Source: Desulfobacteraceae bacterium (lineage in GTDB: Bacteria; Desulfobacterota; Desulfobacteria; Desulfobacterales; Desulfobacteraceae). Taken from it: a stretch of 51,213 bases of DNA. A program made the translations under genes and the position numbers. Under the pieces are notes generated by a model. The model searched no databases and was not told where the DNA came from. It worked only from the letters and a program-made list of their open reading frames with translations. Below, in pieces: positions 1-51,106 of the stretch. Location of the stretch: the NCBI GenBank assembly GCA_003354055.1, contig PIVQ01000005.1, positions 1 to 51,213 on the forward strand, read 5' to 3'. Position 1 is the first letter of the stretch, and every line of letters begins with the position of its first letter.

Positions 1-119
1 AAGGAGAAGTGATGAGTAAAAAACCCCCGAACTGGAGTAAGATTGGAAAGCGTTCGCGTGCCAAAGGTGCGGCATTCGAGCGTGAGGCAAAAAAGGTGTG
101 TGCGGGTCTGTGGGATCAG
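1..119. repeat. Terminal direct repeat, left copy
   Basis: Bases 1-119 are identical to 51095-51213. A perfect repeat that stops exactly at the contig ends, inside a gene, is what an assembler leaves when a circular (or circularly permuted) molecule is reported as linear. The unique circular length is 51,094 bp. I see no stem, promoter or packaging signal special to it; it holds the ribosome binding site and start of the first gene. It could also be a true terminal redundancy, but a 119-base length suggests a k-mer overlap. Confidence 0.9.
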
Positions 120-506
120 GATCACTGTCAGGTGGACTGGACACGGATTCGGCCTGAGACTGCACAAAGATTGGGTGCCGGAGATTTGGCACCAACGTAC
201 TCGGAGATTGCAACCGCAGGGATTCCAGGAAGACCTGTTCTAAACTTCGGATGGGTGATCGAGTGTAAGCACCGCAGACAAATCAACGCGGTGACGATCC
301 AAGGCTGGATTGATAAGATGCTCGTGGAAAATCCAGACCGAGTGCCCGTCCTGATCTACAGGGTGGACAACGGACCGGTGACAGTAGTGTGTCCCTCTTC
401 TCTAGGTCTTCCTCTTCCGTGGAAAGTGACTTGGCGTCAACTGAAGGTGTTGCAAAGGAACATGGCGTCTGCGTTCTTTCTTCCTTCTTGGACGTGGCGA
501 CCATGA
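12..506 (+). CDS. PD-(D/E)XK nuclease, Holliday-junction-resolvase-like
   Basis: A 164-residue protein. The core pieces are a basic N-terminus with a KGAAFERE helix (first acidic residue), an AGDL segment (catalytic Asp) and VIECKHRR (the E-x-K half of the PD-(D/E)XK motif). This order is typical of small Hjc-like or VRR-type phage resolvases, which would cut branched replication intermediates. The ATG at 12 is chosen because AAGGAG lies at 1-6 and the stop of the upstream methyltransferase overlaps it as TGATG across the circle junction. Its stop overlaps the polymerase start as ATGA (503-506). Nuclease fold likely; substrate inferred. Confidence 0.7.
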   Translation: MSKKPPNWSKIGKRSRAKGAAFEREAKKVCAGLWDQDHCQVDWTRIRPETAQRLGAGDLAPTYSEIATAGIPGRPVLNFGWVIECKHRRQINAVTIQGWIDKMLVENPDRVPVLIYRVDNGPVTVVCPSSLGLPLPWKVTWRQLKVLQRNMASAFFLPSWTWRP

Positions 507-2557
507 TTGCCAAAGTAGTGTCACCCAACGCCAAGCAAGAGGATATGCAGTTAGCTCGATCGCTGATTCGGCACGAGTTGACTGACGTGTCGGTGACATA
601 CAGAGATCCCAGCGAAAAACCCTGTGTGGTCCTGGTGGAAGGACAGGAAGGTATGAAAGCCGCAGGTCTGGGGACGAAACTGCCGGTCACCGGTAGTGTT
701 TGCTGGAGTGACAAATACAAGACATTCGTCGTGCAAACGAAGTGGATGCTTGGTCTTTTACCTGATGAACTCCGGTCTGTGGGAAAAGCCATCAAAGCCT
801 GCGTCAAGGGGAAGCAAAGATCCTCGACGTTAGTGCTTGACCCGAAGACCTTCATGGCTGACATCAGGAAAAGAGACGTTGGTATCGACTTTGAGACTAC
901 AGGTCTCACTCCTGCGAATGACGGAATTCTGTCAGTTGGTGTTGGGTTGAAGGAAAACGGACGCTATCACGGGTACTGGTGGCCCATTTGGCATAAAGAA
1001 TGGGCAGCAACACCAGGAGCAAGAAGACAGCGTATGCGAGACCTCCTCCGTTGGTGGGGGTCTGGCGGCACGCGAATCGTCCACCACGCAAAGTTCGAGT
1101 GTGGCTGGGTTGATTGGTTGCAGAAGGCTTACGGAATAAAGAGTGCCACAGATGCGGCATCCAACACCCACGACACGATGATGGAAAAGTGGTTGTTGGA
1201 TGAGAACACTCCACACAACCTGGACTGGCTCTCGGTTCAGGAGTTAGGGTACAAGCCGTACTGGTTGCGTCTTGGTCCAAAAGATCAATTCAGTGACGAG
1301 AGTCTGACACTCTTAGGGCGATACAACGCCTTAGATGCTGTGGCTGGGATTGAGCTTCATCACAGGTACTGGCCACGAATGACGGAAAGACAGAAGATAC
1401 TCTGTAAGGAGACTTTGGTACCGGTGTCTCTGGTGCTGGCACGTATGGAACAACGAGGAATGCACGTCAGCATTCCGAAGCTGAAGAGTGCCATCAAGGT
1501 GACACAAAAGAGAGCAAATGAGATCAAGGGTACCCTCGATGAAGAGTGGGGTGTCTTGAACTTCAATTCGGTACCGCAGATGACGAAACTTTTGTTCGAG
1601 CAGTTAGGGATGCCTGTCCTTAAGACCACACCAAAGGGCAACCCGAAGATGGATGCGGACATACTCGAGCAGTTAGCAAAGCGTGACCCGAATGTGGCAC
1701 TCTTGTCTGAGTATAAAAAGTGTCTAGCCAAGATTTCGAACGTTCTAGCCAAGCTGCTCAAATTAGCAGAGAGTCAAGATGGTGTCATTCACACCAACTT
1801 CAACATCGGGTTGACTGTGACTGGACGTCTAAGCTCTTCAGGACCGAATCTGCAGAACCTCGAACGGGGAGGAATCGAAAAGACCTGCTTCAGGTCGAGG
1901 TTCCCTGGTGGTTGGCTCTTGATTTTGGACTACAAACAGCACGAACTCAGAATCTGTGCTATAGAGTCGCGTGACGATAACTTGTCACTCGTCTTCATTG
2001 ATGGACTCGATCCTCACTCAGAAACCAAAGCTAACTGCCGTCTGCCGTCACGTGATATTGCCAAGAACGTTAACTTCAGCTTCATCAGTGGCATCACGCC
2101 GTGGGGTCTGGAGTTCGAGTTTGGTATTCCACGTGATAAAGGCGAGATCTACAAGAAGCGATGGTTCAAGAGGTACCCAGGTGTGGGAGAATGGCACGAG
2201 GCTGTCATTTCGCGTCTTCGTTCAAGTGGGTACGTGGAGAATCTATTCGGTCGTAGGCGTCACCTTCCCGGCATTCTGTCGAAAGACAGGCAGACGAAGA
2301 ATGACGCACGAAAGCAGGGACTCAACTACCCGATCCAGGGTGGTGGTGCTGACCTGATGTATCAGGCAATGAACAAGGTGGAACGGGCACTGTCTCCGTA
2401 CAACGCTTGTCTCATTGGTCAGGTTCATGACTCAGCTATCATTGACTGTCCCGCAAAAGAGGTAAAAGAGGTAAGTGCCATTGTTTCGGCATGCATGAAA
2501 GACTTCCCGTTCAAGGTTCCACTAGGTGTGGATGTGGACGTGAAAAAGCATCTATAG
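503..2557 (+). CDS. Family A DNA polymerase with 3'-5' exonuclease (DpoZ-like)
   Basis: A 684-residue replicative polymerase with an N-terminal exonuclease and C-terminal polymerase domain. Exonuclease motifs: DFE at D129/E131, HHAKFE near 194-199, YNALD near 274-278. Polymerase motif A is DYKQHELR with D476. Motif B is R517-x3-K521-x2-NF, but the Gly and Tyr that normally follow (FGxxYG) are both Ser (S526, S529). Motif C reads VHDS (D643) instead of VHDE. The start at 503 forms an ATGA overlap with the upstream stop; longer in-frame starts run far into the nuclease gene. Together with purZ and mazZ it is a good candidate for the Z-phage polymerase that incorporates 2-aminoadenine; that specificity is inferred. 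Confidence 0.9.
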   Translation: MIAKVVSPNAKQEDMQLARSLIRHELTDVSVTYRDPSEKPCVVLVEGQEGMKAAGLGTKLPVTGSVCWSDKYKTFVVQTKWMLGLLPDELRSVGKAIKACVKGKQRSSTLVLDPKTFMADIRKRDVGIDFETTGLTPANDGILSVGVGLKENGRYHGYWWPIWHKEWAATPGARRQRMRDLLRWWGSGGTRIVHHAKFECGWVDWLQKAYGIKSATDAASNTHDTMMEKWLLDENTPHNLDWLSVQELGYKPYWLRLGPKDQFSDESLTLLGRYNALDAVAGIELHHRYWPRMTERQKILCKETLVPVSLVLARMEQRGMHVSIPKLKSAIKVTQKRANEIKGTLDEEWGVLNFNSVPQMTKLLFEQLGMPVLKTTPKGNPKMDADILEQLAKRDPNVALLSEYKKCLAKISNVLAKLLKLAESQDGVIHTNFNIGLTVTGRLSSSGPNLQNLERGGIEKTCFRSRFPGGWLLILDYKQHELRICAIESRDDNLSLVFIDGLDPHSETKANCRLPSRDIAKNVNFSFISGITPWGLEFEFGIPRDKGEIYKKRWFKRYPGVGEWHEAVISRLRSSGYVENLFGRRRHLPGILSKDRQTKNDARKQGLNYPIQGGGADLMYQAMNKVERALSPYNACLIGQVHDSAIIDCPAKEVKEVSAIVSACMKDFPFKVPLGVDVDVKKHL

Positions 2558-3903: not shown

Positions 3904-4173
3904 GTGGTCCTTACATGGAAAAATGACATGCAGTTGGCAGTAAAGTGGTGTTCCGGTCACCACGTAGCAGAACCGGATAACGCGGGAATCATGATCAGTC
4001 ATGACAGCAGCCTGACACGCGGACTGTGCGTGACTGAAAAGGGTAAGATGCAAACGGTGGATCTCGCCCTAATCACAGTGATATTTGAGGACAAGGAGAT
4101 CGAAAAAACAGAGAACAAAGATGACAAGAATACGACATCGGGCAAAACCGACAAGGGTAAATCCTCGAAGTAG
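3904..4173 (+). CDS. Hypothetical protein with lysine-rich tail
   Basis: An 89-residue protein starting at GTG 3904, behind GGGGAGGG (3891-3898). The N-terminal 55 residues look globular; the last 30 are a highly charged low-complexity tail (E/K/D/T/S). Two genome-wide palindromes fall in it within 100 bases (3923, 4001) and a third at 4121. It ends 13 bases before purZ and is probably co-translated with it. No family recognised. Confidence 0.55.
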   Translation: MVLTWKNDMQLAVKWCSGHHVAEPDNAGIMISHDSSLTRGLCVTEKGKMQTVDLALITVIFEDKEIEKTENKDDKNTTSGKTDKGKSSK

Positions 4174-4186
4174 GAGCGAACAACAG

Positions 4187-5236
4187 ATGCAAGCAGGAAA
4201 GCTAAACGTCATAATCGACGGTCAATGGGGAAGTACGGGAAAAGGGGCCCTAGCGGGAGCCTTGACCCCAGGTTGTAGCGTGACTGTCTGTGACTTTATG
4301 CCACAGGCTGGTCATACCGTGTTCTGGGGTGGGAAAAAGTACGTCTTCCGTCAACTCCCCGTGGGTGTCCTTCAACCTGGACACGTCGTGTACATCGGTC
4401 CTGGTGCTGTCATCGACGAATCACGCTTCCTTGTGGAGCTAGAGTGGGTGGCTCCAGGAGTGGAGGTAGTGATTGATTGGCGTGTCCCACTACTCGAGGG
4501 AATCGACCACGCAAACGAAAGAGCCACCAACGCATGGATGGGTTCCACGTGCGAAGGGTGCGGATCTTGCCTCTCACGTAAGGTTCGTCGCCTGAAAGAC
4601 GTCAAGTTCATCACGGACAGTGTCAGAATCCTGTCACACAAAGCAGTGACGACGGGAGACGTTCATCAACAGCTATCGGAAAGTCTGGGTGATGGGCACA
4701 CTGTCATGGTGGAGTCGGCTCAAGGATTCGGCCTGTCCCTCAATCACGGCTTTTATCCACACGTTACCTCCCGTGACGTGACTTTGACATCGATCCTCGA
4801 TCGGATTGGTGGTTTTCATCCTGAACAGGTGGGTGACGTGTGGGCGTCACTCCGAAGCTTCCCGATTCGCGTTGGTGGTCCCTCCGGTCCTTGTTTCAGT
4901 GATCAGAAGGAGCTAGATTGGAGCGAACTGCCATGCCCACCAGCGAAGCCAGAGAGAACCACGGTTACCGACAGGGTACGCCGGATCTTCACGTGGTCCA
5001 ACATGCAGTACCGGGACTTCATTGACAGAACGCGACCTACACACATTCGGGTCAGCTTCCTGGATTATGTGATGCCGGTGAGTGACATTCACGTGTCACA
5101 CGTCCCGAACTCCAGAGTTCTCGAATGGTTGGATGTTAACGTGCGGAAGCCTTACATTGATGTGGTTGGTAGGAGCCCCAAGTTGATGCAGGCTTCGTTT
5201 GGTCCAGGTCCGGAGGATTACGTGTCATGGTCTTGA
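4187..5236 (+). CDS. purZ: PurZ-type adenylosuccinate synthetase (2-aminoadenine synthesis)
   Basis: A 349-residue PurA-fold enzyme. The P-loop reads DGQWGSTGKG: the catalytic Asp of PurA (GDE) is Ser at residue 16, the hallmark of phage PurZ. GHT (H43), IGPGAVID, a QGFG segment and NHGFYPHVTS follow in PurA order. PurZ joins aspartate to dGMP to make N6-succino-2-amino-dAMP, which host PurB turns into dZMP. The ATG at 4187 follows AGGAG (4172-4176); the longer reading frame to 4085 overlaps the previous gene and adds only basic residues. Its end overlaps the nucleotide kinase by 10 bases. Activity on dGMP is established for the family and inferred here. Confidence 0.85.
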   Translation: MQAGKLNVIIDGQWGSTGKGALAGALTPGCSVTVCDFMPQAGHTVFWGGKKYVFRQLPVGVLQPGHVVYIGPGAVIDESRFLVELEWVAPGVEVVIDWRVPLLEGIDHANERATNAWMGSTCEGCGSCLSRKVRRLKDVKFITDSVRILSHKAVTTGDVHQQLSESLGDGHTVMVESAQGFGLSLNHGFYPHVTSRDVTLTSILDRIGGFHPEQVGDVWASLRSFPIRVGGPSGPCFSDQKELDWSELPCPPAKPERTTVTDRVRRIFTWSNMQYRDFIDRTRPTHIRVSFLDYVMPVSDIHVSHVPNSRVLEWLDVNVRKPYIDVVGRSPKLMQASFGPGPEDYVSWS

Positions 5237-19165: not shown

Positions 19166-20170
19166 CTAGTTCGACGTATAGCCGCGATACAGCAAAGCAG
19201 GTCGCGTGCAGATGTTGAACGGCGAAGACTGAACATGAACCTTCGTGGCCGTGTTCAGATCATTCGGCACCTGCTTGACGTAGATCGGAATGCCGACCGT
19301 GTTTGCGACCTCCAGGAACGTTCCTGGACTCCACGTCGTTTGGAACAGATTCGGAACGCCGACAGGGAAGAACCTGCAGTCCCCATCAGGGATGAAGGGT
19401 GCCGAACCACTGGCATAACCCCTGTACTCTTCCCAGAAGATGTCGCCAAACTGAAAACCTGACCGTACATCGTCCCGGAGGAACGCTCCCTGCTGCCACC
19501 TGTCGAACGCTGCTTTTACCAAAGCATGCGTGGTGAACGCCCGATAGAAGGATGGGGAACACAACGCGTGGACGTGGTCGTACGCAAGACCACCCAGCAC
19601 GTTTTCGATGCCACCGACAACCTCGTGACACTTCGACCGGATGTTCGTGCCTGCAGTACCAAGCACGAAATCCATTGTCGGCTGTGTGACACTGAATCGA
19701 GTGAACAGGTTCTCGATGACAGACTGGTCAGCGTCGAGGACTGTCCCCTTGATGGCACCGATTCTCAGGTGCTCAATCGTTGTCATGATGCTCTGCTTCA
19801 TCTGAGTGACCCGGCTGTTCATGACTGCAGCCAGTCCAGCAGTGGATTCGGGATTCTCGAAGGTTCCCTTACCCTGGATGTCGTCGGAGGTGATCTCATC
19901 CTCCAACGGAAGGTGCTGTGCGTCGAAGCGATGCATCTTGCCCTGCGTATGCTTGTGGGCTGTCGCCTGACCACCGCGTTTCTGATTCGGAACGAGTGTC
20001 AAGACTCCGTCTTTCTCGGCAACGGCAATCGTGACCTGGGTGATTCCCTCCGTACTGAAGAGTCCCATCCGTCCGATGCGACCCTCCGCGTACGGGAGGT
20101 GTTGGGCTGCCTTTGTCAACGAAACGAATGAATACGGTGCGTTGTCAAAGGGGTTAATGATAGCTGGCAT
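19166..20170 (-). CDS. Major capsid protein, lambda gpE-like HK97 fold
   Basis: A 334-residue protein with the gpE-family pattern. The opening NPFDNAPYSFVSLTKAAQHL matches the start of gpE proteins; TTIEHLRIGAIKGTVLDADQ is the family spine helix followed by the beta turn; and the C-terminus ends in a TRPALLYRG segment. It follows the decoration gene, as in lambda-like head modules. It holds just one palindrome (19398), leaving a 780-base gap, the longest in the genome. Confidence 0.85.
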   Translation of the reverse strand: MPAIINPFDNAPYSFVSLTKAAQHLPYAEGRIGRMGLFSTEGITQVTIAVAEKDGVLTLVPNQKRGGQATAHKHTQGKMHRFDAQHLPLEDEITSDDIQGKGTFENPESTAGLAAVMNSRVTQMKQSIMTTIEHLRIGAIKGTVLDADQSVIENLFTRFSVTQPTMDFVLGTAGTNIRSKCHEVVGGIENVLGGLAYDHVHALCSPSFYRAFTTHALVKAAFDRWQQGAFLRDDVRSGFQFGDIFWEEYRGYASGSAPFIPDGDCRFFPVGVPNLFQTTWSPGTFLEVANTVGIPIYVKQVPNDLNTATKVHVQSSPFNICTRPALLYRGYTSN

Positions 20171-24348: not shown

Positions 24349-25635
24349 TTCGTCTGCGTCTTCCACTGCAGCATCCAGAGCGTCCGTCACTTCTGGAGTA
24401 TTCAACTCTCGTTCAGCCCGAAGAGCCTCCCTATCGTCTTCGTCGAGCATCGGCAGTCCCGCAGCTTCAACGATGGAGTCAAGGTCGATTCGATCCAACA
24501 TCTCTTCCAACCCACCCTGCGTCTTGAGAATCGTGGCCAGTGTCTCGTGGAAGAGCGTCTTTTTCTCATCAGCAATCGGGGATGCCAGAATTCTGACAGT
24601 GTTCTGTGCTTTCATCCCGTAGTTGGCAACGAGGATCCGGTTAACGAGATGCCAGTTGATCAACCTGACGAGATCTTTGTGTCTCAGGTCCATATCGGTG
24701 AGAGCGAACGACGCGTGTTCTCCTGCTTCGGCCTTCGTCCCGAACTGTCCCTCACTGACGGATCGTTCAGGAAGAAAGTACGAACGAATGATCAGCTTGT
24801 CGAGGTACTCACCCCGTGGAAGGAATGCCGGTTGTTTGGCACCCGAATCTGACAGAAGTTCGACCCCCCACTGGATGTGTTCCACCATCTCGGCAGTCAC
24901 GCCGTGCGTCGTCCTTGGAATCATACGGGGAAGAATCAGCCCACTGGACGAGCGAAGCTGCGTAAGGATAGACTTTGCTATCGTTTCATTCGGGGTGTTT
25001 ACTCCTGCGACGTCCGTTGATCCCACAGGATAGTTGACGACTACGTGGCTTCCTGCCACTTTCTTGTCATAACGAGCTGCACCGTGGTCCCACTCCACCC
25101 ATCTGTTGTAGAGACCACGAACCACCTCAAGTCTACCCATGCTGTACCAGTAGGTCCCCTCCACTTCACCATGGAGAACCAATGCAAGCTCGATCGGGAC
25201 TTCAACACCGTCGTTCTGACACAATGATGACATCTGACCTCGACGATCCACGTGTATCGAGGTGATGTCCTGGAGGAGAGGTTTCGTCTTGATGGGAATC
25301 AGGTCTCCCTCTATCAACTCCCAGATGATTTCAAAGGGGCTCCACCCGAAATCGAGTACGCCACACAGACCGGAACCCAAGAGGATCGGCCTGATGTCGA
25401 GCATCACGTCTTCAATAAGCTCCTGTGCTCCTTCAGGTGCTTCGTCGTCTGCCTCGATGGTCCACTCGGCAGCAAGAATCGGTGCCTTAGCCATGGCACG
25501 AGCGAATTGTACCGTAGCCTGCTTTCTGACAGTACGGTATGACTCGTACGTGGCAGGGAGGTTGAGCGGCAAATCCTGGTCATCGTAAAGACTCAGAGCC
25601 AAAGCCGTGTGTTGTGCACCTGTGATCTCAGGCAT
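24334..25635 (-). CDS. Portal protein, DUF935 / Mu gp29-like
   Basis: A 433-residue protein with the DUF935 portal pattern. An N-terminal YRTVRKQATVQFARAMAKAP stretch is followed by WTIEADDE, LDFGWSPFEI and a C-terminal acidic tail. It forms the dodecameric ring through which DNA is packaged. It overlaps the gpF-like gene by 8 bases and follows the terminase, the usual Mu-type order. Confidence 0.85.
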   Translation of the reverse strand: MPEITGAQHTALALSLYDDQDLPLNLPATYESYRTVRKQATVQFARAMAKAPILAAEWTIEADDEAPEGAQELIEDVMLDIRPILLGSGLCGVLDFGWSPFEIIWELIEGDLIPIKTKPLLQDITSIHVDRRGQMSSLCQNDGVEVPIELALVLHGEVEGTYWYSMGRLEVVRGLYNRWVEWDHGAARYDKKVAGSHVVVNYPVGSTDVAGVNTPNETIAKSILTQLRSSSGLILPRMIPRTTHGVTAEMVEHIQWGVELLSDSGAKQPAFLPRGEYLDKLIIRSYFLPERSVSEGQFGTKAEAGEHASFALTDMDLRHKDLVRLINWHLVNRILVANYGMKAQNTVRILASPIADEKKTLFHETLATILKTQGGLEEMLDRIDLDSIVEAAGLPMLDEDDREALRAERELNTPEVTDALDAAVEDADEVTNG

Positions 25636-26956
25636 AGTTAACTACCTCCGCTAAGGATTCCATGTGGATCCCTCCTTCTGAGTCGTAGTCGAAGGGTACG
25701 TCGATTGGGAACAAATCGAAGATCGAATAACCTGCACTGTCAGCAGCGTGTCCCCGCTTCGGATCTGACGTGTCCATCTGCCTCGTCCCTGGTTTGAATC
25801 CGCACTGTACGAGATCTTCCCTTAGATGCTCGCACTTAGGATCAATGAAAAATCGTCTCTCTCCTCCTGCTGACTCTAGCATGGCATTCACTCGAGCCCA
25901 TCTGTCTTCTATCGACGGGTTTGCATCAGGGTAATGGACTGTCCTCCCCTTCTGAATGAACCACGGGTCCTCCAGGATCTGGTCATAGTCACTGCTGGCT
26001 GCAGACGTCTTGCGTGCCTTACTAGTGGCATCACCGTGGAATTCAAATCCACCTTCGTGGTAAGCAAACCTCTCCTTCGTCCTTCTCAGAGCCATACGGG
26101 TGTTTGCGTCCTCCAGGTGGAGTTCGTCGATAGCCTCGATGTGCTCTTTACCCCTGCGTTGCATGAACGTCCATGCCATGGGGTCGACATTGAAGTCCGA
26201 AGACACGATCACTGGCTTGGTCTTGTCATAGTGACAAGGACGAACGTTGTAGGCTTCGTCGAAGCAGTAGTAGACCCCACCACCTGACGTCTGCCATTCA
26301 GCCAGCATCTGTTCTCTGTAGTCCTTCGGATCCATCTGGCTCATGGCTGCAGAGAGGACATCTGCTTTCACGATTCCCGTACTAGGCCAATTAAAGCAGA
26401 TCCGATCGTCACTGCCACTACTGCGACATTCAGAACAGAACGACTTAAACTCTCTCGAAGACGGACCGGATCTTTTTGGGACGCCGATTCTCCAGCAGAA
26501 CCCATCGTACGTCGACAAAGCGGGAAGAATCGAGTTGGTGTAAGCACCAGAGATGTGATCGCAAGCCTCGTCGATGATGCCACCAGCCCATTGATCACCC
26601 TCGATTCGTTCCGGCTTGTTCATGCCGCAAATGTGGAGTGACGTACCAAAGACAGTCTCGATGATAAGCTCTGACTTGTTGATGTCACTGATCCACGCTT
26701 CAGGAATAAGCCGTAAGAACTTCTTCCACGCGATACGCTTTGCCTGCTCTCGTGTTGGTGCAGCGTAGAAGTACATCGGCTCTGGGTTGTTTGGTTGCGG
26801 ATCAGCAAGTCTCAACACCAGCTTACGCCGTGCAATCTCCGTCTTACCCGAACCTCGACCACCGTATACGGCAATAAATCGACACCTACTCTCCCAGAAC
26901 TGATCCTGGATGGGATGATGAAACAACGGATACCAGCCTAGGGGTAGTGCCACCAT
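25628..26956 (-). CDS. terL: Terminase large subunit
   Basis: A 442-residue packaging motor. The N-terminal ATPase has Walker A YGGRGSGKTEIARRK and Walker B GGIIDEACD; the C-terminal RNase H-like nuclease carries IVSSDFNVDPMAW (first Asp). It cuts and pumps DNA into the head. ATG 26956 is preferred to 27010: it overlaps the upstream stop as TAATG and begins MVALPLGWYP, a usual terminase opening. The site 26947-26964 covers the start. Confidence 0.9.
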   Translation of the reverse strand: MVALPLGWYPLFHHPIQDQFWESRCRFIAVYGGRGSGKTEIARRKLVLRLADPQPNNPEPMYFYAAPTREQAKRIAWKKFLRLIPEAWISDINKSELIIETVFGTSLHICGMNKPERIEGDQWAGGIIDEACDHISGAYTNSILPALSTYDGFCWRIGVPKRSGPSSREFKSFCSECRSSGSDDRICFNWPSTGIVKADVLSAAMSQMDPKDYREQMLAEWQTSGGGVYYCFDEAYNVRPCHYDKTKPVIVSSDFNVDPMAWTFMQRRGKEHIEAIDELHLEDANTRMALRRTKERFAYHEGGFEFHGDATSKARKTSAASSDYDQILEDPWFIQKGRTVHYPDANPSIEDRWARVNAMLESAGGERRFFIDPKCEHLREDLVQCGFKPGTRQMDTSDPKRGHAADSAGYSIFDLFPIDVPFDYDSEGGIHMESLAEVVNYA

Positions 26957-27273
26957 TATGTCACCGTCAAAACTTCCTTTACCTGGAATTGCTTCTTTGA
27001 ACTCGTCCACGTACCAGAGGGAGTGACCAAGTACCCTTGGATCTCCCAGACCCCAGCAACATCGAGATCGTCCGCTACGGTAACGTACTGCATCAGTCCG
27101 TCCGTCCCGTCCGTGGCGAAAACTGCGTCTTCCTCCACTACCACATCGTTTGGGTCTTTGAGCCTGATCTTCATCGTCGTGGCAGCAGAGATGTCAAACA
27201 CAGCACCATCCTCTGTTACCTCAAGGATGAGCTTTGTCCCGATATCACCTACGTGTACTTCAGGGTCAGCCAT
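26956..27273 (-). CDS. Small Ig-like tail/neck protein (BppU N-terminal-like)
   Basis: A 105-residue beta protein with the pattern of BppU-type N-terminal domains (LILEVTEDGAVFDISAAT, then TMKIRLKDP). Such domains join receptor-binding fibres to the virion. It sits between the fibre gene and the terminase. The start codon falls in the spacer of site 27263-27280. Confidence 0.6.
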   Translation of the reverse strand: MADPEVHVGDIGTKLILEVTEDGAVFDISAATTMKIRLKDPNDVVVEEDAVFATDGTDGLMQYVTVADDLDVAGVWEIQGYLVTPSGTWTSSKKQFQVKEVLTVT

Positions 27274-40815: not shown

Positions 40816-40847
40816 CACGAACACGACACAAAGAAGGAGACACGATT

Positions 40848-41249: not shown

Positions 41250-41262
41250 GGAGGACGGATCA

Positions 41263-41616
41263 ATGAAGGACAGAACCTACAAAAAGCTGCAAAGTGCCAT
41301 CCGATTGGCACTGCGAGACATCCTCGACGACATCGACGTCTGCGATAAACTGGCAGAGTCCATCAATGGGTACATGACGGAGAAACAACGAGCAGCCATC
41401 CTCAAGGACGATCCGGACGGCGAGATGTGCGACAGGCTCGAGGGTTGGATGAGACATGTCGTCTATCTGACACTCGATGGATTGGAGATGCCGGACCTCA
41501 GGGAAACATGGGCGTGCCACGGATGCGGCATTGACCTGATTCCTTACGAGGAGCCGTGCAAAGGATGCAAGTGCCACTACGACGGCACCAAGAATCCAGG
41601 ACCCAACTACCGATAG
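41263..41616 (+). CDS. Early protein with zinc ribbon
   Basis: A 117-residue protein. N-terminal helices, then CHGCGIDL and CKGCKC near the end (four or more cysteines). Start behind GGAGGA. Not recognised. Confidence 0.6.
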   Translation: MKDRTYKKLQSAIRLALRDILDDIDVCDKLAESINGYMTEKQRAAILKDDPDGEMCDRLEGWMRHVVYLTLDGLEMPDLRETWACHGCGIDLIPYEEPCKGCKCHYDGTKNPGPNYR

Positions 41617-41620
41617 CCGA

Positions 41621-41643
41621 AACCCCCCGAATCATCGGGGGTT
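41621..41643 (+). terminator. GC hairpin after gene 41263-41616
   Basis: AACCCCCCGA, loop ATCA, TCGGGGGTT. A strong stem without a T-tract, 5 bases after the stop and 10 bases before leader hairpin copy 2. Hairpin plus leader is a repeated pair (also at 42750 and 44446), so it may be an attenuator or processing site. Confidence 0.6.
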
Positions 41644-41653
41644 CACGGTGGGG

Positions 41654-41683
41654 TGGTTCCCCCTGTGCTGATGAGGCAAACCA
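41654..41683 (+). ncRNA. Conserved leader hairpin, copy 2
   Basis: TGGTT and AACCA (plus one more G-C pair) close a 20-base loop ending in TGCTGATGAGGCA, followed by CAACACGAACGAAGGAGA and the start of the next gene at 41709. Confidence 0.7.
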
Positions 41684-41708
41684 CAACACGAACGAAGGAG
41701 ACAGAGTG

Positions 41709-42743: not shown

Positions 42744-42749
42744 GCCGAA

Positions 42750-42769
42750 ACCCCCCCTACACGGGGGGT
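42750..42769 (+). terminator. GC hairpin after gene 41709-42743
   Basis: ACCCCCCC, loop TACAC, GGGGGGT, six bases after the stop and directly before leader hairpin copy 3. No T-tract. Confidence 0.6.
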
Positions 42770-42780
42770 ATGGGGGACGT

Positions 42781-42810
42781 TGGGCGGATCCCCACTGATG
42801 AGGCAGCCCA
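42781..42810 (+). ncRNA. Conserved leader hairpin, copy 3
   Basis: TGGGC and GCCCA close a 20-base loop ending in CACTGATGAGGCA. Stem bases differ from the other copies on both strands, so pairing is kept while sequence is not. Start codon follows at 42834. Confidence 0.7.
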
Positions 42811-42833
42811 CACACGAAGAAGGAGACAGAACG

Positions 42834-43298
42834 ATGGCACAAAAGCAGTTGAAGACGACGAAGTTTAGTAAGAGGCAGTGGGAGATCATTGACGCGATGA
42901 ATTGGCATGACGACATGCTGTCACTCGGCACGTTGCGGGTTCTGCGGAGCGGAAAGGAAACAACATGGGCTCACTTCGAGTGGACGACTGGTATTCAGTA
43001 CCACTATTGGGTGGGACCACACGGTCAGGTAAAGAGCAATCGGGTAGACGATCTCGGTTCTGCTGCGAGCCACTACACCTACCAAAAGGCACGTGAACGC
43101 TGGGTGTTGACTCAGCCAATCGAGATGATGATTGACACCATTGGAAAGATGGATGCCACCAAGGTGTCAGGCGAGCAGTGGTTGCGGCTGATGAGTAGTG
43201 TCAATGGATTGGCATCCTCAAGATACGCGACAACGCGTGGTCCAGTCTGTGACCTGTGTGGGTCGGTTCACGCGAAGGGAAGTCGTTGTCCCAACTAA
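42834..43298 (+). CDS. Early protein with C-terminal zinc motif
   Basis: A 154-residue protein. The core has several W/Y/F residues (SGKETTWAHFEWTTGIQYHY); the end is CDLCGSVHAKGSRCP, a compact zinc site. Starts behind AAGGAG. Unknown role. Confidence 0.6.
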   Translation: MAQKQLKTTKFSKRQWEIIDAMNWHDDMLSLGTLRVLRSGKETTWAHFEWTTGIQYHYWVGPHGQVKSNRVDDLGSAASHYTYQKARERWVLTQPIEMMIDTIGKMDATKVSGEQWLRLMSSVNGLASSRYATTRGPVCDLCGSVHAKGSRCPN

Positions 43299-43309
43299 GG
43301 AGGTGCCAC

Positions 43310-43504
43310 GTGTTTGGCATACGACCATCAAGAGAGTGCAATTGCGGATCAGGTGAGATCGGGTACGAGTTGACGGATGCACGTGGAATCTACGTGGCGT
43401 TTGTCTGTGAGAAATGTGAAGGAGAGGTGAAGAAGGGGTACAGACCGGAGATCTTCACAGACGGTAGTTACCCCTGCGATGAGCAGATTGACGAGGATTA
43501 CTGA
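43310..43504 (+). CDS. Small zinc-ribbon protein
   Basis: A 64-residue protein starting at GTG 43310 inside a palindrome (43303-43320). Cysteines CNCGSGE and FVCEKCEG form a ribbon; the tail is acidic. Small proteins of this kind (CxC...CxxC) are common in phages; function unknown. Confidence 0.6.
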   Translation: MFGIRPSRECNCGSGEIGYELTDARGIYVAFVCEKCEGEVKKGYRPEIFTDGSYPCDEQIDEDY

Positions 43505-43507
43505 ACA

Positions 43508-43545
43508 GTGCCAGATGTCTGTCATAGTTAAGCTTATTGACGACA
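43508..43545 (+). promoter_or_regulatory. Palindrome plus TAGTTAAG element, third partial copy
   Basis: GTGCCA-N6-TGTCAT followed by AGTTAAGCTTATTGACGAC. The first 40 bases match the control module at 44812 and, inverted, 39703. Here the module is cut short and runs into the ribosome binding site of the next gene. Confidence 0.5.
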
Positions 43546-43568
43546 ACTCACGAGAAGGAGATCGAACG

Positions 43569-43994
43569 ATGAACGAAGATCGAAAGTCGCTACTCAATGA
43601 TCAGGAACGAATCACCACGTTGGTGATGGAGACGATGCGGGAGGATCTGCGAGTCAACGAAACAACCATGGACGCCGACATCAGCTTCGCACAGTGTACA
43701 ATCCGTTCCCTAGATTTGAACGGAAACGCGATGCACGCCGCAGTGGGTGTCATCAGAGAGGCATTCTTGAGAGAGGCAGCAGAGATCGATGCTCTGGCAG
43801 ATGCTGCGATAGGCAAGGATAATGCCCCAACACTGACATCCCGAAGATTAGACGCCAACGCAGCGTACGCACGCCGTGTGATGGTAAAGCTGCAGGAAGC
43901 AATGGAGACCTGGATACCTCCTTGCATTGGCTGTGGTCTTTCCCGGCATGAAGGAGCCTGCGAAGAGACGTTGATTTTCACTGATAGGCACTAA
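43569..43994 (+). CDS. Early hypothetical protein
   Basis: A 141-residue, largely helical protein with an end containing CIGCGLSRHEGAC, a candidate zinc site. Starts behind AAGGAG. No family recognised. Confidence 0.6.
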   Translation: MNEDRKSLLNDQERITTLVMETMREDLRVNETTMDADISFAQCTIRSLDLNGNAMHAAVGVIREAFLREAAEIDALADAAIGKDNAPTLTSRRLDANAAYARRVMVKLQEAMETWIPPCIGCGLSRHEGACEETLIFTDRH

Positions 43995-43998
43995 AAAG

Positions 43999-44016
43999 AT
44001 GACAATCGTTTGTCAT
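43999..44016. promoter_or_regulatory. Extended intergenic palindrome
   Basis: ATGACA-ATCGTT-TGTCAT extends to 8-bp arms (AGATGACA and TGTCATCT). It is the longest perfect form I found and lies between genes, 5 bases after one stop and about 30 before the next start, so it is a good reference operator. Confidence 0.65.
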
Positions 44017-44048
44017 CTAAACGCATCCCCACGAGAAGGAGAATAGAG

Positions 44049-44426
44049 ATGGCTGAGAGAGTACGAGGAGACAAGAGGTTGTCACATGGTCAGTTTTTCG
44101 ATCTCTGCAAATGGATCGAGGTTCATCGGGAGGAGCTAGTTGACAACAAGGACTGGAAAGACTGTCTGGCAGAGGCTGCTGCAGTGATCAAGCCGAACCA
44201 CGGTGTCTCAGATGGGACATTTCGGGAGGCAGCCAAAAAGGTGGGGGTCATTCTGGTGCAGGCTCGATTCACACAAGAGAGTGTCACTAGGGCGACACCT
44301 CTCCTTAAGGCTATGGGTCGTGCCATCCTTCTGCTGGGTGATCAGCGAAAGGGAGGGTGGCCGAAGGGGATCACCAATCAGGAAGTGCAGATCATACGCG
44401 ATTTCCTGAAGGGCAATCCCACATGA
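44049..44426 (+). CDS. Early hypothetical protein
   Basis: A 125-residue basic, helical protein (MAERVRGDKRLSHGQFFDL opening). Its repeated helices might form a DNA-binding domain, but no HTH is clear. The palindrome 44423-44440 overlaps the stop. Not recognised. Confidence 0.55.
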   Translation: MAERVRGDKRLSHGQFFDLCKWIEVHREELVDNKDWKDCLAEAAAVIKPNHGVSDGTFREAAKKVGVILVQARFTQESVTRATPLLKAMGRAILLLGDQRKGGWPKGITNQEVQIIRDFLKGNPT

Positions 44427-44445
44427 CAGGTGTTTGACACCGAAT

Positions 44446-44461
44446 CACCCCTTCGGGGGTG
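44446..44461 (+). terminator. GC hairpin after gene 44049-44426
   Basis: CACCCC, loop TTCG, GGGGTG, 20 bases after the stop and 12 before leader hairpin copy 4. No T-tract follows. Confidence 0.55.
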
Positions 44462-44473
44462 ACTGCGGATGGG

Positions 44474-44503
44474 TGGTTCCCTCCGTACTGATGAGGTAAA
44501 CCA
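44474..44503 (+). ncRNA. Conserved leader hairpin, copy 4
   Basis: TGGTT and AACCA (plus one more G-C pair) close a 20-base loop ending in TACTGATGAGGTA. Start codon follows at 44526. Same loop length and core as copies 1-3. Confidence 0.7.
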
Positions 44504-44525
44504 CAACACGAACGAAGGAGACAGA

Positions 44526-44831
44526 ATGATGGCACAATTTTACACGGACCCAACACGAGAAGAAGACCCACACGCTCTCCCTGATGCGGAGGTTTTCCAT
44601 GTGGATCCTACAGAATGCATACTACTGGAGAACGGAACACTAAGTCATTACGGCGACTTAGGAGAAGGATGGTTTTGGTGGCAGAAATCTCCTGGTTGTC
44701 TTCCTGATGGAGAACCCAACGGACCCTTCGAGACGGAGGATGCCGCAGTAGTGGCAGCGAGAGAAGAGGTGACCATGGAAAAGGACGCAGACGCAGCGTG
44801 GGAAGCGATGAACGACAGAGACTTGTCATAG
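44526..44831 (+). CDS. Small acidic early protein
   Basis: About 101 residues, very acidic, with GEGWFWWQKSPG in the middle and a helical end. Start 44526 or 44529 behind AAGGAG. The control module begins inside its last codons. Unknown role. Confidence 0.55.
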   Translation: MMAQFYTDPTREEDPHALPDAEVFHVDPTECILLENGTLSHYGDLGEGWFWWQKSPGCLPDGEPNGPFETEDAAVVAAREEVTMEKDADAAWEAMNDRDLS

Positions 44832-44904
44832 TTAAGGATATTGACGACGACTCGGTTTGTGCCATTATCGTGTCGTAAAGTCCCACTTTATGAAATGGCC
44901 AATC
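44812..44904 (+). promoter_or_regulatory. Control module, plus-strand copy
   Basis: Aligns without gaps with the minus strand of 39703-39611. It contains ACGACA-N6-TGTCAT, TAGTTAAG, TTGACG (possible -35), an imperfect palindrome (44859) and TAAAGT-CCC-ACTTTA (44876-44890). Its downstream end lies just before the gene at 44937. Confidence 0.6.
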
Positions 44905-44936
44905 CTAGACCTGTACTAGATGAAGGAGATAGAACA

Positions 44937-45560
44937 ATGGCGAACAGACGTTGGAAGTGCCACGCTTGTGGCAGCTACGATTGCAGAACGGGGAAATGCC
45001 AGAAGTGTGGCAGTTACCGAACAGGACCGTCGATGGAGGGGTCAACCGATGAGAAGCCCACGAAAGAGAAGACGACAGAAGGACTGGCGGATACGTCAAC
45101 TGGAACAGTGGATCGGTCATACGGCGTGGGTAGTGGGCTTCCGATCCGACACCCCGATCAACCCATTCAATCAAGGGACGGAGTACCACGCGATTTGGCG
45201 ACAGGGAAGGGCTGCAGCCCAGAAGTGTCACGAGGGTGTCAGGAACACATAGAGGGTTTCCTTCAACTCCTCACAAAGGATGACGCAGACCTGTCAGTAG
45301 TAAGACTTCAGATCGCCATAGGAAGATGGTGTGAGAGGTTGGAAAGGAGTAGAGAAAGTGCCATAGGTTTGTCCTTACAAGAACGAATCGCGGAGATCCG
45401 GGACTACGCAAGGCGTCTTCAAGGAGCCATCTGTCTGGTCACAGGGTACCAGGAAGACCCTCCGGTATGTCTTGATTGTGGCTGGAGAAGCTGCCGATGT
45501 GCACCAAATGACGACGTATACGGTTGCGACCACCACGAAGGATATCGGAACGGGGGTTGA
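44937..45560 (+). CDS. Protein with zinc ribbons at both ends
   Basis: A 207-residue protein. N-terminus: CHACGSYDC and CQKCGSY. C-terminus: CLDCGWRSCRC and a CDHHEG end. The middle is a helical segment. A bridging or nucleic-acid-binding role is plausible. Starts behind GAAGGAGAT. Confidence 0.6.
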   Translation: MANRRWKCHACGSYDCRTGKCQKCGSYRTGPSMEGSTDEKPTKEKTTEGLADTSTGTVDRSYGVGSGLPIRHPDQPIQSRDGVPRDLATGKGCSPEVSRGCQEHIEGFLQLLTKDDADLSVVRLQIAIGRWCERLERSRESAIGLSLQERIAEIRDYARRLQGAICLVTGYQEDPPVCLDCGWRSCRCAPNDDVYGCDHHEGYRNGG

Positions 45561-47118: not shown

Positions 47119-47625
47119 ATGGTGGTGGAAATCTGCGGAATGGATAACTGCCAGAATACTGACATCGAGCTAACGTGGCTTGGTGAACCGATTTGCTCGA
47201 CATGCTGGCGTTCAGTATGCGAGATGGAACAAGAAGGAGAAAAAGAGATGGAGAGCACAGCAACAAAAAAGGTGGTCAAGAAAAAGGTAGTCAAGAAGAG
47301 TGCCAAGAAGACGGCACCCAAGGCCAAGGCAACAAAAAAGGCCGTCAAGAAAGGAACGACACCGAAGGCCGTCAAGAGGGTGAAAAACGCAGCCGACAAG
47401 TGGAAGGTCGGAGCCAAGACCAAAGCGGGTGCCAAGATTCTGGCAGTCCACGATCCGGACCCCAGGGATGGCACACCAGGACACGGACGGCAGATCACCA
47501 TCGCGTGCGTCATCACCGGCAAACCGCGTAAGATCTACGTGCAGGACGCACATCAGGTCTGCACGATCGACGATCCCAAGGTCAAGGCGGAGATGCGGAA
47601 GAAAAGGAAAGCAAGCAAGGGCTAA
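47119..47625 (+). CDS. Zinc finger plus histone H1-like lysine-rich protein
   Basis: A 168-residue protein. Residues 1-35 carry CGMDNC and CSTCWRSVC. Residues about 50-100 are a lysine/alanine repeat (KKVVKKKVVKKSAKKTAPKA), like bacterial H1-type proteins (HC1). The C-terminal part is a small beta/alpha domain. It may coat or compact DNA, host or phage. It stands beside the sigma-like gene. Confidence 0.65.
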   Translation: MVVEICGMDNCQNTDIELTWLGEPICSTCWRSVCEMEQEGEKEMESTATKKVVKKKVVKKSAKKTAPKAKATKKAVKKGTTPKAVKRVKNAADKWKVGAKTKAGAKILAVHDPDPRDGTPGHGRQITIACVITGKPRKIYVQDAHQVCTIDDPKVKAEMRKKRKASKG

Positions 47626-47635: not shown

Positions 47636-47653
47636 GTGTCACATGGATGTCAC
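47636..47653. promoter_or_regulatory. Palindrome spanning the start of the sigma-like gene
   Basis: GTGTCA-N6-TGTCAC with the ATG (47643) in the spacer. If the HTH protein it encodes binds the palindrome, this is an autoregulatory site. Confidence 0.55.
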
Positions 47654-48155
47654 CCTTGCATGTGAACTGGACGGAGTGTTCACGAGGTGTACAGACGCGA
47701 TGATAAGGACCCAATCATGGAGAGAAGACGCGAAGCAGGACGTGTGGGTGCATGTTCTACAGAAATGGTCGAGGTTCTCACATCTCAAGGGTGCGGAGTT
47801 AAAATCCACTCTCTGGGTTGTGTGTCGCAATTTTGTCACCACGTGGATTGGTGAAAAGCGTAAGGAGTTCTTATCCCTGATTCCTTACGGAAACGTTGAA
47901 CAACCCCAATCGATGGCACTCGTTGATTGGGATGATGTGTGGTCAACCCTGAATGCACCGGCGTTATTCGTCGCAAAAGAGTGGCTGTATGGAGGTTGTG
48001 CCGCAGAGATGGCACGCAAAAGAAGCGAAAACCTCAAGCGGGTAACTGTGACGATGCAAGACGTAGCCGAGAGCCTAGGGATGAGCAGAGCTACGGTCAG
48101 CAGGCACCTAGCGTCCTTCCGGGAAGCCGTGGAGGTCTGCACGTACAGCCTGTGA
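47643..48155 (+). CDS. ECF sigma-like protein with CRP-like recognition helix
   Basis: A 170-residue protein. Residues about 24-75 (REDAKQDVWVHVLQKWSRFS to WIGEKRKEF) fit sigma-70 region 2 of the ECF type. Residues 138-163 are a helix-turn-helix, DVAESLGMSRATVSRHLASF, whose SRxTVSRxL form is shared by sigma region 4 and by CRP/FNR-type recognition helices. It may direct RNA polymerase to late promoters, or bind the genome-wide palindrome. It is the only clear HTH in the window. Two strong terminators follow. Confidence 0.65.
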   Translation: MDVTLACELDGVFTRCTDAMIRTQSWREDAKQDVWVHVLQKWSRFSHLKGAELKSTLWVVCRNFVTTWIGEKRKEFLSLIPYGNVEQPQSMALVDWDDVWSTLNAPALFVAKEWLYGGCAAEMARKRSENLKRVTVTMQDVAESLGMSRATVSRHLASFREAVEVCTYSL

Positions 48156-48418: not shown

Positions 48419-48961
48419 ATGACATTTATTGAACTCTACGTTGCCTTAGTGAAGCTTGCCACAGGTGTGCAGCAATTCCACCTATATCATGGCAAGGGTA
48501 AAGCCCCCCTCCTCAAGAAGTTGGTGACAAAACTTCGTCATCTAGAAATCGATCCTCAAGAGTACCTAGCACAGATGTTTGGGTGGTACACACCGAACAG
48601 ATGCCGCAGGCTACTAGCGGGGTTAACGTACCCAACACCTGAACTGCTAGGGGGATGGCACTCAATATCCCTTTATTTCGATCTCAAAGCGGGACGAATC
48701 AAAGCAGAAAAGATCAAGCTTCCTGAGGTTGTGGTGGTCAAGGAAAGAGTGATTCGAACGGTAGATGTTCAGAAAGGAGAGGTCGATCCGTTATCTGCCA
48801 TCGTGAATGCCAAGGATTTGTCATCTTTAACGGGACTCAAGCGAGTCGAGGTGACACAAACAATAACGAAACTCAAAAAGAGCAGGAAAACGCTATGGGC
48901 AAACAGAAAGGCTATCTTACGGGCAAGCCTGGGAGGTACCTCCGGGACCTGTGGATCGTAG
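48419..48961 (+). CDS. Hypothetical protein
   Basis: A 180-residue basic protein with N-terminal helices (FIELYVALVKLATGVQQFHL), a mid region rich in L/P/G, and a VVVVKERVIRTVDVQKG strand pair. Start ATG 48419 lies in palindrome 48408-48425. No family recognised. Confidence 0.55.
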   Translation: MTFIELYVALVKLATGVQQFHLYHGKGKAPLLKKLVTKLRHLEIDPQEYLAQMFGWYTPNRCRRLLAGLTYPTPELLGGWHSISLYFDLKAGRIKAEKIKLPEVVVVKERVIRTVDVQKGEVDPLSAIVNAKDLSSLTGLKRVEVTQTITKLKKSRKTLWANRKAILRASLGGTSGTCGS

Positions 48962-49212: not shown

Positions 49213-49373
49213 GCGAAGATACCGAAGGAATGGTAAGGGAACTGCTCGACAACGAGAACGTGGAGTTGAACAGTTGGGAAGCTGGTTTCATTGAGGATAT
49301 GGAGGGAAAAACCACCTTCAGTCCCAATCAGGCAGCAAAAGTGTCACAGATTTGGCACAAGAACTTTGGTTAG
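49209..49373 (+). CDS. Small hypothetical protein
   Basis: A 54-residue acidic protein, too short for the usual cutoffs. ATGA overlap with the previous stop; AGGAG of the next gene lies in its stop codon region. Function unknown. Confidence 0.55.
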   Translation: MSEDTEGMVRELLDNENVELNSWEAGFIEDMEGKTTFSPNQAAKVSQIWHKNFG

Positions 49374-49383
49374 GAGAATAGTG

Positions 49384-50256
49384 ATGGTACCGATTGCTGG
49401 TAAAGACTACGATTTGCATCTCCCTCAGGAGTATGCGAGTGTAACGCAGATCAACATGGGGCTACGTTGCCTCAAGCAGTACGAGTTTCGCTACGTGGAA
49501 GGGTTGAAGATTGCTCCTGCTCTTCCTCTTGCGGAGGGTGGCTCGCACCACACCGCACTCGAAGCGAACAACTTGCAGAGAGCAAAGAAAGGAAAGAGCC
49601 TAGCGAAAAAGACGATGATCGACCGATTCGCAGAAGCTTTCCTTGGTCAGGAAAAGGAGATAGCCGACTGGCAAGGCGAGAACGCCAACAGCGTGATTGC
49701 ACGAGGGAAGGGAATCATCGAACTCTACCTTCAGTCTCCTGAGAGTGCCACTACTCCGACACTCATTGGCAAGGACCACGGGGTGGAGTGGGCATTCGGT
49801 GGCATCAACAAACACGGCAAGAACAAACAGAAGGATCAACCGTCCGTGTTGGTTGCTGGTGTGCCGATGGCTGGAATCATCGACCTGAGAGAAGCGAAAG
49901 AGGTGACGGACTACAAGGTGGTAGCCAAGTCCCCGTCAGCCAACGCAGCAGAGGTGAGCTTACAGCTTATGATCTACGCTGCGGTGACACGGACCCCGAA
50001 GACCAGCATTGTCGGGTTGACAAAAACGAAGACCCCGAAAGTCGTCAAGGTGGAGCATAAGCACGATCTCAAAAGAAGTGCCAGATGGGTGGCACACGTC
50101 GTGTCCTCCATCGCAAAGTCCATCTCGGCTGGGATCTTCCCCTGTGCGAGTCCCGACAATTGGGCTTGTTCTCCGAAGTTCTGCGGTTATTGGGGCCGAT
50201 GCCGTGGAGCGTCCGCACAGACGAAGTATTTCCAAGTTGGAGGTGTCAAGTGTTAG
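49384..50256 (+). CDS. RecB/Cas4-type PD-(D/E)XK exonuclease
   Basis: A 290-residue protein. Opening YASVTQINMGLRCLKQYEFR is the CRxxY-type helix of Cas4/RecB nucleases. AGIIDL and VTDYK give the catalytic Asp and D-x-K. C-terminal CASPDNWACSPKFCGYWGRC is a four-cysteine cluster, likely Fe-S. It could resect DNA in recombination. Start ATG 49384 behind AGGAG. No other Cas gene is present, so this is a recombination enzyme. Confidence 0.8.
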   Translation: MVPIAGKDYDLHLPQEYASVTQINMGLRCLKQYEFRYVEGLKIAPALPLAEGGSHHTALEANNLQRAKKGKSLAKKTMIDRFAEAFLGQEKEIADWQGENANSVIARGKGIIELYLQSPESATTPTLIGKDHGVEWAFGGINKHGKNKQKDQPSVLVAGVPMAGIIDLREAKEVTDYKVVAKSPSANAAEVSLQLMIYAAVTRTPKTSIVGLTKTKTPKVVKVEHKHDLKRSARWVAHVVSSIAKSISAGIFPCASPDNWACSPKFCGYWGRCRGASAQTKYFQVGGVKC

Positions 50257-50531
50257 ACATCCAACGTGAAGTTTCGCGATGGGTGGCTCTCACCTTTCCT
50301 GCGGCAACGCTAGAATCGCAGATTCGCAAACTACGAGCAGAAGTAGTGGAGCTAGAAAAGGACCCATCCAGCGTTGACGAACTGGCAGACATCGGTGTCG
50401 TACTTCTGGCACTCACTTCACGAATGGGAGAGGATTTTGACTCCCTGGTTCGCCAGAAGATGGAGATAAATCGGACACGACAGTGGGCTCTCCAAGATGA
50501 CGGCACGTACCAACACGTGAAGGAGAAGTGA
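50250..50531 (+). CDS. mazZ: MazZ-like DUF550 dNTP pyrophosphohydrolase
   Basis: A 93-residue, all-helical protein. The pattern WVALTFPAATLESQIRKL, then EVVELE (E-x-x-E) and DELADIGVVLLAL (E-x-x-D), ending in KMEINRTRQW, is that of the DUF550 branch of MazG-like enzymes. In Z phages MazZ converts dGTP to dGMP (and dATP to dAMP), feeding PurZ. Start GTG 50250 behind GGAGG, overlapping the nuclease by 7 bases. Confidence 0.8.
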   Translation: MLDIQREVSRWVALTFPAATLESQIRKLRAEVVELEKDPSSVDELADIGVVLLALTSRMGEDFDSLVRQKMEINRTRQWALQDDGTYQHVKEK

Positions 50532-51106
50532 TGCGACGACTCAAACCACACGACGTGTACGTCATCGATCCACCGTGGCCTACGCAACGACCAAAGAAGA
50601 ATCAAGGCCGATACGTCGTGGACGAACGGTACACGTACGACACGATGTCACTAGTTGACATCGAGGAATTGCTGCGGCAAAAGATTCTCCCTGACCAAGA
50701 GGGACTCGCACTGAAGGAGCAGAGGCAAACACAGGTCTTCCTGTGGTCTGTCGATTCGATGGTTTTTCACGGTGACACGATGATGGCAGCACTCGGTTAT
50801 CGATTTCATGCTCGTCTAATCTGGGATAAGGGAAACGGCTTCCCGTCCCACGCAATTCGACATGCTCATGAATATCTGACTTGGTACTACACCGGACTTT
50901 TCCTTCCCCCAGCATCAGGAACGAAAGGTAAGTACGCGTCGGTGTTTCACGCTCCATCCCGACAACATTCGAGAAAGCCGAACATTGCGTATGACATGAT
51001 ATCGACACTCTATCCAAGTCTGAGAAAGGCAGACATATTCAGCAGAGAGAAGCGTAAAGGATGGTCAACGTGGGGCAATCAAACGAACAAGATGAAGGAG
51101 AAGTGA
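50531..51106 (+). CDS. MT-A70-family adenine-N6 methyltransferase
   Basis: A 191-residue protein. VIDPPWP near residue 12-17 is the DPPW catalytic motif of adenine-N6 methyltransferases; the end has DIFSREKRKGWSTWGN, the usual MT-A70 C-terminus. Start ATG 50531, AAGGAG upstream. It is coupled to mazZ and to the PD-(D/E)XK gene (TGATG). In a genome with A replaced by Z its substrate is an open question. Confidence 0.8.
   Translation: MRRLKPHDVYVIDPPWPTQRPKKNQGRYVVDERYTYDTMSLVDIEELLRQKILPDQEGLALKEQRQTQVFLWSVDSMVFHGDTMMAALGYRFHARLIWDKGNGFPSHAIRHAHEYLTWYYTGLFLPPASGTKGKYASVFHAPSRQHSRKPNIAYDMISTLYPSLRKADIFSREKRKGWSTWGNQTNKMKEK

Follow-up and report, generated by a model that had tools for sequence, protein, structure and literature searches.

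We analyzed a 51,213-nucleotide stretch of DNA (contig PIVQ01000005.1; hereafter the window), which is the circularly complete genome of a siphophage: its ends overlap by 119 bp, and the resulting circle measures 51,094 bp. The genome carries a dense array of palindromes of the form (V)TGHCR-N6-YGDCA(B), extending from position 59 to 51168, with 225 strict copies in the window and ∼310 copies by matrix on the circle. The array almost certainly consists of selected sites for a dimeric protein that binds double-stranded DNA. Our preferred reading of its role, that the sites nucleate a nucleoprotein coat or organizer over the whole genome, is given a little less than an even chance.

Form and number of the palindromes

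The 16-bp core TGNCR-N6-YGNCA was found 225 times in the window, compared with 3–15 times at each other spacer (0–5 and 7–19), which confirms the preference for a six-base spacer reported in the original prediction. The first core site starts at 59 and the last one ends at 51168; 224 strict sites lie on the circle. The number of 18-bp palindromes had been put at about 230. The full 18-bp form RTGNCR-N6-YGNCAY occurs 150 times (0–7 at other spacers) and 225 is the number of 16-bp cores. The array itself is real and stronger than had been stated. Using a symmetric 22-bp matrix, we detected 314 sites above 8 bits, against a mean of 17.1 (maximum 29) when the halves were shifted (12 shifts); merging of overlaps left 310 sites, or one per 165 bp. 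Weaker matrix sites were present in all three of the largest strict-set gaps inspected, among them gaps of 957 and 830 bp.

The half-site can be refined to (not T)-T-G-(A/C/T)-C-(A>G). Among 448 half-sites, G is found at the N position in 6 and T precedes TG in 14, and A is three times as frequent as G at the R position. Variants in which a single mismatch puts C or T at R are likewise overrepresented (56 vs. 3–13 at seven other spacers). Unpaired half-sites show a mild excess (749 vs. 636 ± 21), to which pairs with a single weak half may contribute. The sites are located inside genes of either orientation as well as between genes. All strict 16-mers are distinct except one that occurs twice; since the sites are nearly all different, the array is not made of copies of a repeat.

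An inverted repeat with a six-base loop could in principle act as a hairpin in RNA or single-stranded DNA, but the variable positions of the paired halves do not covary, and we consider hairpins very improbable. Complementary pairs at the N position numbered 83 (75.7 ± 6.7 in 1000 permutations), those at the R/Y position showed a deficit (122 vs. 138 ± 6, 1000 permutations), and six other position pairs of the halves gave no covariation excess in the permutation test. The absence of covariation argues for a double-stranded dimer site rather than a hairpin. The R/Y deficit indicates that two weak (G-type) halves are avoided together, as with additive affinity plus a threshold. The fixed N6 spacer, the symmetric non-covarying halves, and the presence of sites in both gene orientations and in intergenic regions thus support well a two-fold symmetric protein that binds genome-wide, as had been proposed.

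Selection on coding sequence and spacing of the sites

Synonymous-codon shuffles, the comparison suggested in the original prediction, did not reproduce the counts: 200 shuffles of a hand-picked set of open reading frames (ORFs), each preserving every protein, yielded 15.9 ± 3.2 sites (maximum 25), compared with 193 observed in genes. The shuffles and the near-uniqueness of the sites refute an origin by chance, codon bias or copying of a mobile repeat, whose probability we take to be practically negligible. Most coding sites (156 of 192) share one codon frame, NNT GNC RNN NNN NYG NCA, the least costly to the protein.

Hexapeptide positions compatible with a site number 553 in 15,198 codons, or 36.4 per 1000, whereas shuffled proteins gave 26.6 ± 0.9 (10 shuffles); a site occupies 187 of 550 compatible positions. 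No such excess was detected in four relatives without the motif, in which the observed and shuffled values per 1000 were 24.8 and 26.2 (G015), 20.7 and 19.9 (G020), 32.4 and 32.3 (G014), and 27.3 and 26.4 (G013). Because of the hexapeptide excess, amino-acid changes, beyond silent ones, seem to have been accepted in the window proteins to make sites. The site is selected at silent codon positions and at the amino-acid level. To our knowledge, selection on hundreds of binding sites that bends coding sequence genome-wide is rarely seen.

The array provides evenly spread coverage with few gaps above 260 bp. Gaps between matrix sites have a mean of 165 bp and a coefficient of variation (CV) of 0.56, compared with 0.90 in random placement (lowest value 0.75; 5000 sets with a 16-bp exclusion). 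Long gaps are scarce, with 36 above 260 bp (60 at random, lowest 45) and 6 above 400 bp (23 at random, lowest 13); gaps below 40 bp are scarce as well (18 vs. 46, lowest 26). The commonest gaps are ∼120–220 bp and the largest is 571 bp, against a mean of 956 bp for the largest gap in random placements. Each of the 51 listed genes that reach 300 bp holds at least one site. The CV of strict sites is 0.64 (0.99 at random); compared with random draws from codon-compatible positions, it is 0.81 against 1.16, and the lowest of 2000 draws gave 0.92. A model with exclusion only reaches approximately the right CV when the exclusion is set at 66–70 bp, and 39–49 shorter gaps were observed. Since such gaps exist, coverage fits better than pure exclusion.

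In the proposed mechanism, a dimeric protein would use each of the ∼310 sites as a nucleation point, from which it would coat, bridge or compact the entire phage genome during infection. The benefit would be that phage DNA is insulated or protected, whether or not transcription is affected, and would depend on nearly every ∼250-bp stretch carrying a site. DNA persistence length is comparable to half or all of the commonest gap (∼120–220 bp); site distances of ∼1–2 persistence lengths would suit bridging, or spreading over ∼100 bp either way. It is also possible, at appreciably lower odds than the coat itself, that the array is a sequence-specific viral chromatin or identity mark, whose bound coat would mark phage vs. 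host DNA or shield it from nucleases, silencing or defense; selection would then maintain a dimer site in nearly every 250 bp, even at the price of changes in the phage proteins. If a coat or label of this kind is real, it would represent site-specific chromatin in a phage, at ∼10 times the density of stoperators, and the ways in which phages package, insulate or mark DNA inside the cell would become testable. The motif is a ready bait for isolating the bound protein.

Relatives of the phage and occurrence of the motif

A search of 5.8 billion proteins, with candidates pre-filtered by shared words, returned one relative each at 54–65% identity for the PolA-type DNA polymerase I (389..2557, plus strand; named by profile scans and protein search), the PurZ-type 2-amino adenylosuccinate synthetase (4085..5236, plus strand; named by profile scans, tblastn and alignment) and a helix-turn-helix (HTH) protein. 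The next-best relatives were at 47% for PurZ and ∼32% for PolA. The three close relative proteins (P0002, P0004, and P0124) are encoded on 26,236-bp contigs, which were taken as one contig. No DNA match was found in INPHARED for window bases 1–25000, all tblastn matches with PurZ, terminase large subunit (TerL), PolA and capsid were below 60% identity, and a PolA search of GTDB genomes gave no match. Scans of IMG/VR with single proteins or two sequences detected no close relative, one of them returning only L001 at 22%.

A three-site motif pattern scanned over IMG/VR gave 32 loci, among which the sole clear dispersed array belongs to L083, or G008 (IMGVR_UViG_3300009788_000166, 42,760 bp). By its protein identities to the window (TerL 48%, capsid 41%, portal 39%, a 275-aa tail protein 46%, and PolA 24%), G008 is a true but distant homologue of the window phage. 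It has 37 TGNC-N8-GNCA sites vs. 4–13 at other gaps, 30 sites with matching flanks vs. 0–6 in the control, and 56 matrix sites above 8 bits vs. 8.8, the matrix having been trained on the window alone. The density is about one-fifth of that in the window, and 26 of the 37 sites are in the window's codon frame. Other IMG/VR matches were rejected as copies of one local repeat (L082, L084, L086, L095, L102, L105, L107, L110, L111, and L112 among them), and the remaining loci were near background after discounting the three selecting sites (whole-record counts, 20 of 32 loci). L088 is borderline, with 16 sites in 52 kb, some of them clustered, against 3 matches to the reversed pattern.

G020 (L134) has replication genes in common with G008, its close kin, but not the motif: the matrix detected no array (10 vs. 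9.8), and only a loose pattern was weakly positive (11 vs. 4.7). No common non-structural gene was detected between the window and G008 except PolA. Both observations would suit a host protein as the binder, the phage imitating a host genome label or the sites recruiting or soaking up a host regulator. We consider this unlikely. RTGNCA-N6-TGNCAY (the 18-bp T/A form) occurs 68 times in the 51-kb window, whereas the maximum was 44 per genome (0.9–8.8 Mb) among 398 evenly drawn Pseudomonadota genomes; no host-wide array was detected in these or in seven genomes holding TerL relatives, the coverage beyond that phylum being seven single genomes. Titration of a host regulator would also not require even coverage.

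The array is not a trait of Z-genome phages: it was found in none of 80 PurZ loci (best 80 of 527), and G008 has the motif but no PurZ homologue was found in it. A different repeat was seen in two IMG/VR PurZ phages, L013 and L012, at sites common to both; TTGWCAA occurs 36 times in 21 kb of L013 vs. ∼4.8 expected from other gaps. These sites frequently read TTGACAA with an A-rich stretch behind it, lie in both orientations, and look like a stoperator-type array.

A search for other palindromes in 29 TerL loci, 9 records and 80 capsid loci revealed GTGCA-N6-TGCAC in the TerL relative G013 (L224, 16,452 bp), and no other dispersed palindrome array of that strength. G013 carries it 21 times, mostly as GTGCAATCNNTTGCAC, and 14 of the 21 copies are at gene starts vs. 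∼8% expected (starts hand-picked from ORFs). This array appears operator-like, a separate per-gene type that differs in sequence and placement. The occurrence of such a second palindrome in a relative is in keeping with a stoperator-like silencer, in which a repressor bound genome-wide would block elongation or spurious promoters, and dispersed repressor sites are known from Cluster A mycobacteriophages (PMC6550527). The window array, however, is ten times denser, symmetric and located within genes of both orientations; ∼310 roadblocks would presumably burden lytic transcription; and no integrase, ParA or classical repressor was detected in profile scans that covered the ORFs apart from some of the structural module. 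A silencer is therefore improbable in our estimate, about on a par with a host binder.

Several observations weigh against a coat that covers the genome. In the window, strict gaps above 400 bp are ordinary relative to codon-compatible positions (34 vs. 40.8), and pair distances show no 10–12 bp periodicity; there is a small excess at 9.5 bp (4.2) and a strong one at 3 bp, the latter because most sites share a codon frame. The profile scans named no binder, and no homologue of the sole HTH protein above a cut-off was found in G008. The original prediction had named the lack of sites at aligned positions in relatives of high protein identity as a refuting outcome, and here the result goes partly against it: in the close relative, the peptide would still permit a site at 3 of 13 strict sites vs. 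10 of 16 compatible non-site positions, in a comparison of three genes as proteins alone (65, 65, and 54% identity). Site positions are mostly not conserved in that relative as far as its peptides tell, and the array may turn over. The G008 array is sparse and Poisson-spaced (30 sites, CV 0.94), and its proteins show no significant bend to the motif (20.5 vs. 18.5 ± 1.4), which argues that coverage is not needed there. TerL (25628..27010, minus strand) served as bait for 106 loci, of which 26 came from IMG/VR and 80 were the best among 412 found in GTDB genomes; 105 of them did not stand out for this motif, the exception being L119, again G008. With the major capsid protein (19166..20170, minus strand) and its relatives as bait, the best 80 of 217 loci were surveyed, and the 79 besides L241 (= G008) were without the motif (best 4 vs. 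1.2); the TerL and capsid sets overlap, and many of the loci are short or distant.

Candidate binders, gene content and known systems

Profile scans were made with PHROGs on 20 large ORFs, with Pfam on 30 ORFs, and with both on 74 small ORFs (of 181), partly the same ORFs; some structural-module ORFs and antisense ORFs lay outside them. A single HTH match exceeded its cut-off, in a 170-aa protein (47643..48155, plus strand) with a C-terminal Crp-like HTH (PF13545, 27.6 bits, cut-off 27) and an additional sigma-70 region-2 match below the cut-off; this protein is a weak candidate binder. No cyclic-nucleotide domain was matched in it by Pfam, and structure prediction gave no usable model (pLDDT 41). 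The sigma-like gene of G008 does not align usefully with it. A 180-aa protein (48419..48961, plus strand) matches HTH_Crp_2 far below the cut-off (E 0.038, 14.4 bits) and gave nothing at E 0.02 in the small-ORF scans; it is an unlikely binder. No further DNA-binding regulator was detected in the 74 small ORFs. An ad hoc regular expression gave no convincing ribbon-helix-helix match in the window, and PF01402 was not matched in seven relatives. The binder may be a small phage ORFan outside known families, the 47643..48155 protein or a host protein; since no homologue of the HTH protein was found in G008 and no other regulator emerged from the scans, the first and the last of these are as likely as the HTH protein. 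A partition factor, also suggested originally, is unlikely, with no ParA-like match in the scans made.

A short G008 ORF (23985-24212) resembles ribbon-helix-helix proteins by eye. Genes resembling sigma factors are present in several related phages, namely G008 (L114:263-748), G016 (below the cut-off) and G020. A sigma-like gene as the general cause of the array is weakened, since G020 encodes a sigma-70 region-2 protein yet is without an array.

PHROGs profile scans assigned PolA, a single-strand-binding protein, PurZ, a DnaB-type helicase, a primase and a RusA-like resolvase, in addition to a head, tail and packaging module that includes TerL, portal, capsid and tape measure. A MazZ-like dATP/dGTP pyrophosphohydrolase is encoded at 50085..50531 (plus strand; PF04447 match, ORF residues 60–147). 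In PurZ of Z-genome phages, serine in the motif Q-x-G-S-T-G-K-G is the hallmark residue; it is present in the window PurZ, and S16 is invariant in an alignment of 31 sequences. With PurZ, PolA and MazZ-like genes present, 2-aminoadenine probably replaces A in the phage DNA.

Other features were noted in passing. Immediately 5′ of the HTH gene, a 168-aa protein (47119-47625, plus strand) has a lysine-alanine-rich, histone-H1-like stretch. Several right-arm ORFs (40522-45560, plus strand) share a similar translated leader (EGDRTM or alike) ahead of the probable start, suggesting a repeated ribosome-site leader for right-arm genes; a single exact DNA pattern matched once only. The peptide ATHCMRHDD is common to two otherwise unlike ORFs (42282, plus strand; 35490, minus strand), and the surrounding DNA is nearly identical.

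Pfam scans also identified an MT-A70 methyltransferase (50528..51106, plus strand) and a PDDEXK nuclease (49291-50256). The presence of these two genes, and a bipartite symmetric motif with one invariant A per half, could be explained if the palindrome were recognized by a modification enzyme or nuclease and served as a self/non-self mark. Known restriction-modification (R-M) sites are far less degenerate than the motif, however, and the scans made turned up MT-A70 as the methyltransferase but no type I/IIB specificity subunit. Phages normally avoid rather than enrich R-M sites. No MT-A70 homologue was found by sequence in G008, where the search covered this methylase family, and the enzyme as reader of the motif is unsupported. 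We regard a modification mark as quite improbable.

The literature on stoperators and genome-wide palindromic phage sites, in the parts accessible, contained nothing comparable; subscription journals lay mostly outside it, so that this is weak evidence of absence. The stoperators of Cluster A mycobacteriophages (L5, Bxb1) number 20–30 per genome, are asymmetric and transcription-oriented, bind a known repressor, and vary in motif among relatives (PMC6550527). The window array resembles them in that a phage genome carries many dispersed sites to which one protein would bind, with a motif that differs between relatives. It departs from them in that its ∼310 sites are symmetric and lie in genes on both strands, and in that no repressor was found in the scans; an ORFan repressor would be compatible with the absence of a stoperator-type repressor, integrase or ParA from these scans.

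The CRP/FNR-family consensus is TG...N6...CA, with half-sites 11 bp apart. The likeness to CRP and CooA sites noted originally holds for this geometry; in sequence, exact CRP or FNR consensus sites number 0 in the window, and the CooA-type TGTCR-N6-YGACA accounts for 11 sites. Nor is the array like a CRP/FNR regulon in its candidate binder, for which the matches were limited to HTH_Crp_2 and, weakly, sigma region 2, with no sensor domain. The MatP/matS system is similar in that the half-site GTGAC resembles some arms in the window. The spacing of matS differs, its exact consensus GTGACRNYGTCAC occurs 0 times in the window, and the motif at spacer 1 was counted 13 times, within the 3–15 background. 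HIP1 of cyanobacteria is a fixed 8-mer, a dense genome-wide palindrome also found within genes. The window motif shares this density and its occurrence inside genes; unlike HIP1, it is a degenerate gapped 16–18-mer, is carried by a phage, and covers the genome near-uniformly.

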